In this document: positions 201-30,353 of the stretch, piece by piece
Layout of the letters: each line of letters opens with the position of its first letter
How positions within the stretch are numbered: the first letter of the stretch is position 1
Assembly (NCBI GenBank): GCA_021324045.1
Contig: JAJPJV010000035.1
Span: forward strand, 1 to 64,000
Origin: Actinomycetota bacterium
GTDB lineage: Bacteria > Actinomycetota > Acidimicrobiia > Acidimicrobiales > RAAP-2
DNA length: 64,000 nt
Direction of reading: 5' to 3'
Translations under genes and position numbers: made by a program
The notes under the pieces: generated by a model
What the model was told of the DNA's origin: nothing
The model's database searches: none
What the model saw: only the letters and a program-made list of their open reading frames with translations

Positions 201-479
201 TCACGCGCTCCGGCGCTGGTCGGAGCGCTGCTCGGGCCGCTTCGGCGGGTGCTGAGGGCCGGGCAGGACGCGGGGCAGGCGGGCGACGTACGCCTCGATG
301 TCTGCGACCAGTAGCCGGCGCGCCGCGCCGATCTTCACGCTGGGAAGCTGGCCGGAGGCCATGAGCTCGTACATCGTGCTGCGCCCGATCGCGAGCATCG
401 ACGCCGCCTCGTTGGGCGAGACGAGCAGGGGCCTGCCTGCTGCGCCGTGCGGCTCTTCGTTCCGGGCGGTCCTTGCCAT
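201..479 (-). CDS. Excisionase-like small HTH protein of the integrated element
   Basis: A 92-residue DNA-binding protein, probably the excisionase/directionality factor of the element or a small regulator of it. Residues about 18-70 form a MerR/AlpA-type helix-turn-helix with wing: VSPNEAASMLAIGRSTMYEL, then a basic strand ending in IEAYVARL. This is the usual helix_turn_helix_17 layout. The C-terminal tail is basic and Pro/Arg rich. The frame is open far upstream, but I chose the start at 479 because AGGAGG lies 7 bases before that ATG and the conserved domain follows at once. It is on the same strand as the prim-pol/helicase and integrase genes, as in actinobacterial integrative elements. 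The family assignment is by pattern; whether it excises or regulates is inference. Confidence 0.75.
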   Translation of the reverse strand: MARTARNEEPHGAAGRPLLVSPNEAASMLAIGRSTMYELMASGQLPSVKIGAARRLLVADIEAYVARLPRVLPGPQHPPKRPEQRSDQRRSA

Positions 480-881
480 CGCGTGTCCTCCTGTGTCCGA
501 CCTGTCTGGACGAGGCCCCGGGTTCGGGCCTCGCGTCTGATGTCGGCAGGTGGACGCGAGCGGATCGACGGGCGACGATGAGGGGGGCCTGGGGCTCTCC
601 GCCCAGGAATTGCCCGCCCGACTGGGGACCCGGCACACGGGGCGTCGGACGCCGTTTCCCGCCCTTCCGACGCCGTTTCCGGCCCTCTCCCGCCCTCTCC
701 GGCGCCGCGGCACCGGCTCGCGGCGGCCCCGCGGCGGCACTCCCCAACACGGTCGTAGGCGTGCGCCCATGTGCGGTGGTGTCCGTCGAGGTCCGCACAC
801 GTCCGATGAGACGACCGACGCGCAGGCGCGACGAAGCGCCGGGGCGTCCCCCGGCAGCGCGGACGCGGGGCCTGGGCGCCC
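480..881. other. Non-coding stretch with short direct repeats
   Basis: About 400 bases between the excisionase-like gene and the end of the prim-pol/helicase gene. I see no convincing gene. Frames are open here only because of the extreme GC content, and they read as Arg/Pro/Gly-rich sequence. The iteron-like repeats at 648-700 lie inside it. It could hold the replication origin of the element or the promoter of the excisionase-like gene. Neither is proven. Confidence 0.4.
648..700. repeat. Iteron-like direct repeats (GACGCCGTTTCC, 21-bp period)
   Basis: The 12-mer GACGCCGTTTCC occurs at 648-659 and again at 669-680, a 21-bp period equal to two helical turns. It is followed by a tandem GCCCTCTCC motif at 682-690 and 692-700. 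They sit in a gene-free stretch beside the replication gene of the element. This resembles a small iteron cluster for a replication or excision protein, but two copies are few and the region is very GC-rich. Confidence 0.35.
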
Positions 882-3965: not shown

Positions 3966-5249
3966 TCAGTTTTGGGATACATGCACCCACAGGGTACCGC
4001 CGTCGGCCTTGCCGGCGGCGGAACCTGTCTCTTCAGGCGGGTGCCTCGAGCACCATCCGCGCTGACCACGGCCGGCCACGCCGGGACCGGACCGAGGCGC
4101 GCTGCGCCCGCCCTGGCCGGCCGGTTGCGCGCCCGCGTACCAGATCCCCGGGTCGACGACCTTGCGCACCCGGTGGCGGTAGACGGCCTCGAGCATCTGG
4201 GTGCTCGTGTGCCCGAGCAGGTCGGCCAGGGTCTCGATCGGTACCCCTGCGTCCGAGAGCAGGCTCGCCGCCGTGTGGCGCAGCTCGTAGGGGGTGACGC
4301 GCTCGATGCCTGCCTTGGCGCAGAGCCGGGCGAGCCGGTGGTTCATGGCCGAGGGCTCGAGCAGGCGGCCCGTCGGGGTGGCGAAGACGAGCGCGTCGTC
4401 GGGCGCTGTCCCACGCTCGAGGGCGCGGAAGGCGGCAACGAGGCGCGGAGGCATCTTCACCACCCGGGCAGAGCGGCGGGTCTTGGTCGGGCCGACCTCG
4501 TAGCCACGAGGCGTCCAGCGCCGAGCACGCACGACGTGGAGGACACCGGCGTCGAGGTCCACGTCCCCCCACGCGAGCGCGGCGGCCTCCCCCGGGCGGA
4601 GCCCGAGGAGCAGCATCGAGAGCCACAGCGCCTCGTCCCTCTCTCCTGAGAGCGCCTGCTCGAGGAGGGCGGCTTCCTCGTGACTGAGGGTGCGGCGCTC
4701 CTTGGGGGGCGCAGCCTCTGCCGGTAGGCGCGCGGCCCGGGCGACGTTGCGGGTCACGAGATCAGTGCGCTCTGCGTCGCCCAGTACGCGCGAGAGCGTC
4801 GCGCGCACGAGGCGCAAGACCGTGCGCGAGTAGCCCTTCTCGGCCAGGTCCTGGAGCAGGGCCTCCACGTCGCGCACCCCGAGGGAGCGGAGCGGGATGG
4901 GAGCGAGCGGGGCGAGGGCGCGGGCGTGCTTGCGGTAGTCGGCCTTCGTCTGGTCGGAGATGCGCAGCGCGGGCAGCGACGCCTCGAGCCAGTGGGCGAG
5001 CCACGCCCCGAACACGAGGTCCGGTTCCTGTGCCCCCTGGGCGTGCTCGAGGCGCAGCTTCGCGAGCGCGAGCTCGGCCTCTGCGCGCGTGGGCGCGCGC
5101 CTGGTCGCCCGGCGCAGGCGGCCCTCCTCGTCCCGCCACGAGAGCATCGCCCGCCAGCTGTCGCGGTCGCGCTCGTAGGAGATCGACCCCTCGCCCCGGC
5201 GGCGCTTCTGGCGTCTGGGCACGGCGGGAGCGTAGGGGCGGGTGCTCAT
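3966..5249 (-). CDS. Tyrosine recombinase (phage/ICE integrase)
   Basis: A 427-residue site-specific recombinase that would insert and excise the element at the neighbouring tRNA(CAT) gene. The N-terminal half has an arm-binding region (GSISYERDRDSWRAML) and a SAM-like core-binding domain (about 78-170). The catalytic domain shows Arg218 (LLGLRPGEA), Lys256 (TKTRRSARVV), ELRHT with Arg324 and His325, His347 (DLLGHTS) and the nucleophile Tyr357 (EAVYRHR). The first His of the usual HxLRH box is Tyr321 here, a known variation. About 60 low-complexity residues follow the Tyr. All catalytic residues are present, so the enzyme is probably active. The gene ends 78 bases before the prim-pol gene on the same strand and starts 140 bases from the tRNA 3' end. 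Confidence 0.92.
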   Translation of the reverse strand: MSTRPYAPAVPRRQKRRRGEGSISYERDRDSWRAMLSWRDEEGRLRRATRRAPTRAEAELALAKLRLEHAQGAQEPDLVFGAWLAHWLEASLPALRISDQTKADYRKHARALAPLAPIPLRSLGVRDVEALLQDLAEKGYSRTVLRLVRATLSRVLGDAERTDLVTRNVARAARLPAEAAPPKERRTLSHEEAALLEQALSGERDEALWLSMLLLGLRPGEAAALAWGDVDLDAGVLHVVRARRWTPRGYEVGPTKTRRSARVVKMPPRLVAAFRALERGTAPDDALVFATPTGRLLEPSAMNHRLARLCAKAGIERVTPYELRHTAASLLSDAGVPIETLADLLGHTSTQMLEAVYRHRVRKVVDPGIWYAGAQPAGQGGRSAPRSGPGVAGRGQRGWCSRHPPEETGSAAGKADGGTLWVHVSQN

Positions 5250-5341: not shown

Positions 5342-5389
5342 CCCGAGGCTCGGCGAGGTTGGACAGTGCCGCTGAACTGGGAAAAGAGG

Positions 5390-5462
5390 TGGGGCCGGTG
5401 GGGATCGAACCCACGACCGAGGGATTATGAGTCCCCTGCTCTGACCACTGAGCTACGGCCCC
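5390..5462 (-). tRNA. tRNA with CAT anticodon (elongator Met or Ile2)
   Basis: The minus strand folds into a standard 73-base cloverleaf. The 7-bp acceptor is GGGGCCG at the 5' end with discriminator A, the D-arm is GCTCAGTGGTCAGAGC, the anticodon loop is CTCATAA, and the T-arm is GTGGGTTCGATCCCCAC. CCA is not encoded. The anticodon CAT could be elongator tRNA-Met or the lysidine-modified tRNA-Ile2. The D-loop with AGTGGTCAGAGCA looks more like E. coli ileX than metT, but this is not decisive. Its 3' end points at the integrase and is the likely integration site. Confidence 0.93.
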
Positions 5463-5677: not shown

Positions 5678-6292
5678 TCAACCCTGGGAAGCTGCAAGCT
5701 GGCGCTCGTCGAGGAACTCCCACCAAGCCCTTGCTCCTGCCTGCACCCCCGCGAGCACCTTTGGATCGTGGGAGACTCGGTTCAGCGCGTCGGTCATCCA
5801 GTTCCGATGTTCACGATCGATCTCAGCGTGAACCTCCCAGAACGCAGTGCCGGCGTCGTCGATGCCGTAGTGCGTTCGCAGGCTTCGGGCCTTCGTCGAC
5901 GCGACCTCGGCTGCCTGCACTTCGTAGGCCACCAGAGCGGCAAGGCAGTCCACGGGATGAAAGACTGCCCAGCGCTCGTAGAGCTGAACGAGGCGGGCAG
6001 TCGCGGGCGTCGGCGCGGGCCGCTCGGCGCCGACAGCGTCAGCGAACCGGTCGAAGAGCGTGAGGTGCGCCTCCGGCACGGAGCATTCATCCCGAAGGTT
6101 CTTCTCGAGGAACCCTCGTACGTCGGGATCCTCCAGGCGATTCGCAACGTCTTCGAGGACCCCAGGGAGGGCGGCTTCGAAGTGCCGGTACTGGCCGGCG
6201 TACGCAGCGAGATCTGCCAACTGGAGCGACCCGTCCTCCCAGCGCCGGTAGAAGGGGTGGCGGAGGAGGCGGTAGTCGTCGATCGTTGCCAT
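5678..6292 (-). CDS. CADD-like heme-oxygenase-fold diiron/FeMn oxygenase, candidate self-sacrificing p-aminobenzoate synthase
   Basis: A 204-residue all-helical TenA/PqqC-like protein. From the start at 6292 the metal ligands expected from chlamydial CADD are all present with matching spacing: Glu69, His76, Glu124, His155, Asp159, His162. The residues known there for self-sacrificial pABA formation also align: Tyr15 (HPFYRRW; CADD Tyr27), Tyr123 (YE; CADD Tyr141) and Lys134 (CADD Lys152). CADD cuts its own Tyr to make the pABA ring and takes the amine from Lys, so this protein may supply folate synthesis. I inferred the alignment from memory of the CADD sequence. An in-frame GTG at 6319 could add 9 residues; neither start has a clear ribosome-binding site. 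The gene stands alone between two tRNA genes. Confidence 0.8.
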   Translation of the reverse strand: MATIDDYRLLRHPFYRRWEDGSLQLADLAAYAGQYRHFEAALPGVLEDVANRLEDPDVRGFLEKNLRDECSVPEAHLTLFDRFADAVGAERPAPTPATARLVQLYERWAVFHPVDCLAALVAYEVQAAEVASTKARSLRTHYGIDDAGTAFWEVHAEIDREHRNWMTDALNRVSHDPKVLAGVQAGARAWWEFLDERQLAASQG

Positions 6293-28424: not shown

Positions 28425-29490
28425 AAGCTCGGACGAGCCGGCTCAGCCTCGCCACCAGCACTTCGAGAACGACCTCGGCCGGAAGAGCGGTCCGTCCCTT
28501 GAGGTCCAGGTCCGCCCCGCCGATCTGGGCAATTGCCTGGGCAATCAAGTCTCCGCCCAACCGGCGGCTCTGGCCCAGGAGCTTGCTGGCCACGTACGTG
28601 CTCCGAGTGCCGATGAGCCGGGCCGCGACCTCTGGAGACGCCGCACCCTCGCCGTCGAGTCGGAGCATCGCCGAGAAGTGGCGATGCAAGATCGCCAAGA
28701 TCTCAGCGGGAGCCCGGCCACCGGGACCCATCATGCGGTGAAGCGCGCCGAGGGCAGCCCCGACGGCACCGCTGTCGATCGCATCGGTCAGCTCCCATGG
28801 CGGTACTGAGCCGGCCGTCCCGAGGAAGGGTTCGAGCTCCGCGACGCCCAGTGATGCTCGATCGCCGTATGCAGTGCGCAGGGTTTCCAGGATTCCCTCG
28901 AGCCGCCCGAGATCCTCGCCGAGGTGCTCGATGAGCCGGGCTCGAGCGGCGGCATCGAGGCGCACCGGGGCTTCCCGCAACCGCTCCCCGACCCACTGCG
29001 CCCGGTCACGACCGGATCCGACGGAAACCTCGACCACCGCTCCGACCGCGGCGATCGCCTTCGCCAGGACCTGGGGGATCGCGCCGGTTCCCCCAGCGAC
29101 GACGACGAGCACCGTTCCGGGATGCCCTGCTTCGACGATCGCCGCAAGGCGCCCGCCGTCTGCAGCCGTGAGGCGGCCCGCGTCTCGGACCACGACGACG
29201 CGCCGATCAAGGAGGAACGGCGGCGTCGTACATGCGTCCACCAGCGCCCCGATGTCGAGCTCGTCGACGCCGGCGCGTCCGTGCTCCTCGAGGGTAAGGG
29301 CTGGGTCGCGGTTCCCCAGCAGCTGAGCGATCAGCAGCCGGGCTGACTGGTCGACCAGGGCGGGATCGTCCCCGCGCACCAGGTAGTCCGAAGCGTCCGC
29401 ACGTGGGCGACTGGCACCGCCGCTCGTGGGTCCGGCGCTCGTGCCCGGGCGCCCCGCGCTGGGACTGCGAGGGGAACGTGCGGTGCCCAT
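28372..29490 (-). CDS. holA: DNA polymerase III subunit delta
   Basis: The clamp-loader delta subunit, about 372 residues, that opens the beta clamp. An N-terminal AAA+-like fold without a P-loop reads [20 protein letters not shown] and [17 protein letters not shown]. The C-terminal collar domain reads [20 protein letters not shown] and [19 protein letters not shown]. The first 30 residues are low complexity. The start (ATG 29490, or GTG 29493) overlaps the stop of the upstream DHPS-like gene. Its 3' end overlaps rpsT by 53 bases. The rpsT-holA pairing is common in bacteria. Confidence 0.93.
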
Positions 29491-30353
29491 CACGCGCTCA
29501 GGACGCCGGCGAGGACGTCGCGCACCCGCCTGCTCCCTTCCACGTCGTGAACTCGAACGATACGACAGCCCCGTGAGATGCCCAGCGCAACGGCCGCCAG
29601 GGACGCCTCGCGCCGTTCGTGGATCTCGAGTCCGAGCACGCGCCCGAGAAAGGTCTTGTTCGACGCTGAAAGCAACAAGGGCTGGCCGAGCTCGGCCAGG
29701 GCTCCCGAGGACCGAAGTAATGTGAGCGACTGCTCCGCATTCTTGCCGAGATCGAGGCCGGCATCGACGACGATCCGGTTGCGAGGGATGCCGGCCCGGG
29801 CAGCTTGCTCGACGCGATCGGCCAAAAAGGCCCGAACCGTGCCGACGACGTCCTCGTAGAAGGGTTCGGGATCCGGGACCCTCGGGGCGAGACGGATGTG
29901 CGTGGCGACGACGGCTGCTCCGCTCGCTGCGGCAGCGGGAAGGTAGTCAGGATCAGCGAAGCCACTGATGTCGTTCCCCATGACGGCACCCGCTGCGTAC
30001 GCGAGCCGAGCGACCGATGCGCGCCAGGTGTCGACAGAGATCGGCACGTCGAAACGCTCGTGGAGCGCCGCGATGGCTGGGACGACCCGTTCGATCTCCT
30101 CCTCCTCGGTCACCTCTGGACCAGGCCCAGCTTTCACCCCGCCGACATCGAGGACGTCGGCGCCAGCGTCGACGAGCTGCTCGGCACGCCGGAGCAATGC
30201 GTCGAGCTCATAGGTCGCGCCGCGATCGAAGAACGAGTCGGGAGTGCGGTTGAGGATGCCCATCACGAGCGCTCGGTACCGCAGATCATGGACCCGTCCG
30301 CCGAGATCCAGCTCGACAACCACCGAGCCCCCCTGCACGCTCGAGCGGTGCAC
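29490..30353 (-). CDS. Dihydropteroate synthase-like protein, FolP2 type
   Basis: A 287-residue TIM-barrel protein of the DHPS family. MGILNRTPDSFFDRGATY is the pterin-site loop, and DVLDVGGVKAGPGPEVTEEE is the second loop. Typical FolP1 enzymes have GGESTRPG there; GGVKAGPG is the pattern I associate with mycobacterial FolP2 proteins, whose DHPS activity is in doubt. So this may be a second, divergent enzyme rather than the folate DHPS. The GTG at 30353 starts 2 bases after the thioredoxin gene; a GTG at 30323 with GGGGGG ahead is also possible. Confidence 0.85.
   Translation of the reverse strand: MHRSSVQGGSVVVELDLGGRVHDLRYRALVMGILNRTPDSFFDRGATYELDALLRRAEQLVDAGADVLDVGGVKAGPGPEVTEEEEIERVVPAIAALHERFDVPISVDTWRASVARLAYAAGAVMGNDISGFADPDYLPAAAASGAAVVATHIRLAPRVPDPEPFYEDVVGTVRAFLADRVEQAARAGIPRNRIVVDAGLDLGKNAEQSLTLLRSSGALAELGQPLLLSASNKTFLGRVLGLEIHERREASLAAVALGISRGCRIVRVHDVEGSRRVRDVLAGVLSA

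Follow-up and report, generated by a model that had tools for sequence, protein, structure and literature searches.

A divergent CADD-like protein from Acidimicrobiales, a probable self-sacrificing p-aminobenzoate synthase with an altered aromatic relay

According to PMC11965152 and PMC13108848, self-sacrificing p-aminobenzoate (pABA) synthases have been characterised in two cases only, namely CADD (CT610) from Chlamydia trachomatis and NePabS (NE1434) from Nitrosomonas europaea. The same papers give Tyr27 and Lys152 as the sacrificial residues of CADD and Tyr43 as an essential one. For NePabS, PMC11965152 describes Tyr25, Tyr41 and Lys159 as essential and Tyr45 and Trp99 as helpful; the pABA yield of the W99F variant is significantly reduced, and the relay tryptophan (Trp92 in CADD, Trp99 in NePabS) is presented there as helpful, not as shown to be obligatory. 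The metal preference of NePabS is set by Phe148 and Phe177, and its F148Y variant shows roughly the same activity with Fe/Fe as with Mn/Fe (same source). Outside Chlamydia, putative pABA synthases are listed by Stone et al. (PMC11965152) for Wolbachia, Rickettsia, Chloroflexi, Sphingomonas and Nitrosomonas, and the Rickettsia copies are mostly degraded according to PMC5615194. Searches of open-licence papers listed none whose title or opening of the abstract reports a self-sacrificing pABA synthase in actinobacteria, and in the review PMC13108848 the string "actinobacteri" occurs only in one reference title.

The window analysed here is a stretch of 64,000 nucleotides from an actinobacterium of the order Acidimicrobiales (assembly GCA_021324045.1, contig JAJPJV010000035.1). 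It contains a complete open reading frame, with an ATG start, a stop codon and no internal stops, which encodes a CADD-like protein of 204 aa (Table 1). We consider it probable, judging from the sequence and the predicted model, that this protein is a divergent, single-turnover, self-sacrificing pABA synthase that replaces PabB and PabC. The best reading is that of a divergent subfamily with a partly rewired radical path, in which the reaction, the path and the physiological role are those we infer below.

Table 1. Features of the window, with the codons of three residues of the CADD-like protein
Feature	Position	Strand	Evidence
CADD-like heme-oxygenase-like dimetal oxidase, proposed self-sacrificing pABA synthase	5678..6292	-	translation, PF14518, TIGR04305, PDB matches, fold match
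Tyr15 codon, site of CADD Tyr27 / NePabS Tyr25, proposed pABA ring donor	6248..6250	-	alignment
Lys134 codon, site of CADD Lys152 / NePabS Lys159, proposed amine donor	5891..5893	-	alignment
Phe80 codon, relay-Trp site (CADD W92, NePabS W99)	6053..6055	-	alignment
Dihydropteroate synthase (FolP), would use pABA	29490..30353	-	TIGR01496 260.6 bits, cut-off 162.6

The protein matches the heme-oxygenase-like dimetal oxidase (HDO) family PF14518 with 62.1 bits (gathering cut-off 28.9, E 7.6e-17), and the CADD model TIGR04305 (fol_rel_CADD) with 127.3 bits (E 6.1e-37), short of the curated cut-off of 200 bits, so that this model fails to call the CADD-like protein of the source genome. The stretch of PDB entry 9pj4, annotated as 4-aminobenzoate synthase, scores 285.5 bits on TIGR04305, three relatives from the phylum lying outside the clade described below score 178-234, and four scored members of the clade, including the 204-aa protein, 104-128. 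A joint scan of 15 clade members gave 2.4e-37 as its lowest E-value, about equal to that of the 204-aa protein itself, which places all of them well under the 200-bit cut-off. Among solved structures, phmmer finds CADD (1rcw, E 2.8e-16; 8va9, 3.3e-16) and 9pj4 (5.5e-15) ahead of BesC (2.8e-5), as does a profile search (9pj4 9.8e-38 and CADD 1e-36 vs 1.7e-14 for BesC).

The phmmer alignment to CADD (1rcw), which covers chain residues 16-216, pairs Y15 with Y27, Y31 with Y43, Y35 with Y47, Y123 with Y141 and K134 with K152, and it reproduces the correspondence of Tyr15, Tyr123 and Lys134 proposed in an earlier note on this DNA. Every residue named in that note is found in the translation at the position it gave, and its six metal ligands all fall on CADD ligands (E69/E81, H76/H88, E124/E142, H155/H174, D159/D178, H162/H181), a predicted set of three histidines and three carboxylates. 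Alignment with both CADD and 9pj4, a close relative through which NePabS was compared, likewise puts Y15 and K134 on the sacrificial tyrosine and lysine. The further claim that every residue is kept does not hold: CADD W92 / NePabS W99 is replaced by F80 and CADD Y170 by F151, and a W-to-F change at the NePabS W99 site lowered activity (PMC11965152).

The 204-aa protein shares with CADD (1rcw, 8va9) the fold, the six ligand sites and the sacrificial pair, as well as tyrosines at the sites of the essential Tyr43 and of Tyr47 and Tyr141, and differs from it, besides Trp92 to Phe80 and Tyr170 to Phe151, in Phe171 to Trp152 and Tyr48 to Arg36; in the structure comparisons the two are 28-29% identical. 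With NePabS it shares the sacrificial Tyr25/Lys159 sites, Tyr41, Tyr45 and the phenylalanine at the CADD Tyr170 site; it has Tyr123 in place of NePabS Phe148 (9pj4 too has Phe at this site, that of CADD 141) and Phe80 in place of Trp99, and it is missing a nine-residue insert of 9pj4. The protein thus pairs a Tyr at the site of CADD 141 with a Phe at that of CADD 170, and its metal preference cannot be predicted from the sequence, given that NePabS F148Y is about equally active with both metal sets. An AlphaFold2 model built from a 79-row alignment (mean pLDDT 95.7, pTM 0.91) retrieves CADD chains on top in Foldseek (TM 0.91), and in VIA-align the predicted model is closest to CADD 1rcw_B (Z 28.1, rmsd 1.6, 199 residues), followed as the next protein by the N-oxygenase HrmI (Z 25.1).

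Among 198 genomes of the same order, sampled evenly from a larger group, the source genome and 15 others (42-56% identity) have a full-length gene, and together with G124, whose copy is internally deleted, these 16 genomes make up 17 carriers. The deletion in the G124 copy (L027) takes out His76, Tyr123 and Glu124 and represents either decay or an assembly error. The lower matches of this survey, which reach to E 0.001, are remote; loci were extracted for 13 of them, and 12 were read as a comparison set of HDOs (L039 was excluded). A scan of named genomes gave 133 relatives, of which the best 80 were used; most of their titles read Acidimicrobiales, Acidimicrobiaceae or simply actinobacterium, and there is a Dormiibacterota group. 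When 396 genomes sampled from the phylum were searched, 34 gave a match with an E-value of 1e-20 or lower; 29 of these 34 belong to orders other than that of the window.

The 204-aa protein, those of the 15 order genomes and the 80 loci (G124 excluded) form 96 clade rows, about a dozen of which duplicate genes present in two collections; L168 and L191, with a stop in the last three residues of the match, are among the 96 but did not enter the alignment used for the structure model. All 96 rows are identical at Y15, W18, Y31, Y35, E39, E69, H76, Y123, E124, K134, F151, W152, H155, H162 and W165, the invariance of Tyr15 being partly by construction, as this residue was in one of the two scan patterns (Lys134 was in neither). 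That Y15, Y123, K134 and five ligands are unchanged throughout argues that the residue match is above chance. The remaining ligand position, 159, is Glu in 65 rows and Asp in the other 31. At position 80, 92 rows have Phe and four have Leu, i.e. the tryptophan has been lost throughout the clade, and position 36 is Arg in 92 of the 96. The invariant Glu39 corresponds to Ile in CADD and Val in 9pj4; its spacing would put it on the face of the helix that carries Tyr31 and Tyr35, and it might contact the metal site, perhaps as a seventh ligand.

The best 15 of the 29 phylum relatives were read: all 15 have Y15, K134 and a tryptophan at position 80, and none has W165. BesC and other HDOs (UndA- and PqqC-type) share the fold of the 204-aa protein, and the 12 read from the order also have its metal-ligand positions, but Tyr15 and Lys134 occur in none of these 12; Trp is found at position 152 in 10 of them, and W152 is therefore not special to the clade. 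W165 and R36 are distinctive of the clade in these alignments. In a midpoint-rooted tree, the clade, the other phylum relatives and 9pj4 are set apart from the 12 HDOs (support 100/99); the clade itself has support 98/94, with the 204-aa protein on a long branch (0.84). Among L177, L182 and L132, records titled Acidobacteria and Saccharibacteria have genes at zero branch length from those of G193 and G168, genomes of the same family, and the gene of a Schlesneria bin is almost identical to an actinobacterial one; the titles or the binning of these three look wrong.

If the proposal is correct, O2 would be activated at the metals and yield a radical that may hop via the conserved aromatics Y123, Y35 and Y31 to Y15. 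The side chain of Y15 would be cut off, with Gly left behind, and oxidised by O2 to the benzoate, which would receive its amine from K134, itself converted to aminoadipate; the pABA formed would then pass to dihydropteroate synthase in place of the product of PabB and PabC. In the clade a Phe takes the place of this relay's Trp in CADD and NePabS, so the holes must hop along a partly different path, for which the clade-invariant W165 and W152, placed by sequence, are candidate residues. A clade in which both sacrificial residues are fixed while the relay Trp is exchanged amounts to a natural experiment on the radical route to tyrosine.

The same features could be accommodated by another dimetal oxidase from this superfamily, one with a small-molecule substrate that reuses the tyrosine/lysine network as an inherited scaffold. 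The HDO superfamily is functionally very diverse (PMC13108848), the relay Trp is gone, W165 and R36 set the clade apart, and matches of the CADD-like proteins to the BesC profile are weak. The gene surroundings are also in line with this explanation: unlike for CADD, a folate gene cluster was not found, with none of the folate pathway genes in the ten ORFs that were scanned between 0.2 and 16 kb of the window, no noteworthy conserved neighbour at the 80 relatives' loci, and no match of the source FolE, FolP and FolB to ORFs of at least 100 aa around these 80 genes. NePabS is likewise encoded outside any folate cluster (PMC11965152). Against a small-molecule substrate, the pABA synthases are the closest of the solved proteins both by sequence and by fold, and a lysine and a tyrosine that are not ligands are retained in 96/96 rows, despite the long branch of the 204-aa protein, and in 0/12 HDOs. 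We regard this explanation as unlikely, and a self-sacrificing pABA synthase as the better account.

The source genome (2.75 Mb, 96% complete) was searched for the chorismate route. It encodes two PF00425 proteins, TrpE (TIGR00564 532 bits, cut-off 517.7) and isochorismate synthase (TIGR00543 249 bits, cut-off 224.75), and a single PF01063 protein, IlvE (TIGR01122 403 bits, cut-off 245.55). With both chorismate-binding enzymes and the sole class-IV aminotransferase so assigned, neither PabB nor PabC was found in the assembly by the PF00425 and PF01063 searches and NCBIfam typing; at 96% completeness a missing gene could be unsequenced. Three proteins match PF00809, two of which are dihydropteroate synthases: one is the FolP of Table 1, on the same contig as the CADD-like gene, about 23 kb off and not adjacent, and the other lies beside FolE and FolB on another contig. 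The FolP gene of the window adjoins thioredoxin and holA genes. De novo folate genes are thus present in a 96% complete genome without PabB or PabC having been found. Of the two roles offered in the earlier note, an alternative route to folate agrees with a pABA user being present while the chorismate route was not found, i.e. with replacement; a duplicate of PabABC is rejected for the source assembly on its PF00425 and PF01063 content.

We extended the search for PabB to 36 genomes of the order, the 17 carriers (including G021, at 88% completeness and 7% contamination) and 19 non-carriers, at least 92% complete, which were taken from the top of the survey listing and from the carriers' families and are not a random sample. 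Each of the 84 PF00425 matches was assigned by BLAST against TrpE and isochorismate synthase from the source genome; 16 proteins are of a third type. Eight of these were put to NCBIfam, where seven scored best on PabB models and L117 on TrpE-clade3; a further seven were assigned by BLAST against the NCBIfam-typed set, and L094 by scores alone. Only L076 and L077 of the seven NCBIfam-typed proteins pass the curated PabB cut-off, and the name is supported by a PF01063 (PabC) domain that adjoins PabB or shares its frame in 15/15 PabB genomes. PabB was found in 2/17 carriers (G073, G116) vs 13/19 non-carriers, with a nominal Fisher p of 0.0008, a contrast that is not significant over independent pairs (TrpE tree, 35 genomes, G004 absent): the tree offers only 5-6 such pairs, most of them with no difference in PabB. 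The phylogenetic profile was accordingly dropped as proof. With at least three chorismate-binding proteins as a proxy for PabB, the figures are 2/17 carriers vs 93/181 others. Dihydropteroate synthase, which would use the pABA, is matched in every one of the 17 carriers (E 1e-71 or better).

Of the named carriers, 50 of the 80 were checked (eight are shared with the order set, and one has no PF00425 match), and PabB was found only in copies of G073 and G116. Twenty further stretches from these genomes comprise 17 isochorismate synthases, two TrpE and one unclear case, which comes from a planctomycete bin. A top match that reached about 288 bits or more counts as TrpE by score, except for one of the 20 stretches read, and second matches under 228 bits and fragments were left out of typing. 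PabC-like genes without PabB beside them occur in carriers G050, G124 and G125 (L275, L276, L277); they count against the proposal, and these aminotransferases share about 47-61% identity with the PabB-linked PabC proteins that they match best. An aminodeoxychorismate-lyase-like protein in carrier G189 stays below its cut-off (234.5 of 273 bits), the second aminotransferase of G123 is a type II IlvE, and the non-carrier G173 has a PabC-like gene near a contig end.

These genomes also bear on the reading that the protein is a pABA synthase by descent, weak or inactive from a broken radical relay, and that the host mainly scavenges pABA. Relatives exist that have dihydropteroate synthase and neither the CADD-like gene nor PabB: six of the 19 non-carriers lack PabB (G074, G142, G015, G173, G017, G004), all with dihydropteroate synthase matches, which makes scavenged pABA possible, and the clade profile finds nothing in five of the six and one weaker match in G173. 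Phe80 equals the harmful W99F of NePabS (PMC11965152), and one relative has the deleted copy L027. Yet the sacrificial and metal-site residues are conserved across the clade, and the loss of the Trp is clade-wide, not sporadic; a crippled enzyme seems to us quite improbable, more so than an oxidase with another substrate. Chance or an alignment artefact behind the residue match is refuted by the phmmer E-value of 2.8e-16 to CADD, the profile E-value of about 1e-36 and the fold Z of 28.1, and has a negligible probability.

Extended from the single protein to its relatives, our proposal is more tentative. It is possible, on balance somewhat doubtful, that a large actinobacterial clade under the cut-off of the CADD model makes pABA self-sacrificially by a path without the relay Trp, via W165 and/or W152 instead, often with Glu for the Asp ligand, and that in many Acidimicrobiales it takes over the role of PabB and PabC. 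The clade is a candidate for the seemingly missing pABA step in actinobacterial genomes like the source genome.

A tRNA-Met gene lies at 5388-5462 on the minus strand, and a phage-type integrase (3966-5249, minus strand) is encoded just beyond its 3' end. That the CADD-like gene is cargo of an integrase element was rejected, as it is on the opposite side of the tRNA-Met and a search for copies of the tRNA-Met region of at least 14 bases elsewhere in the window gave none. Further left of the integrase is an HTH_17 protein (201-800, minus strand), and the two genes together suggest an integrated element.
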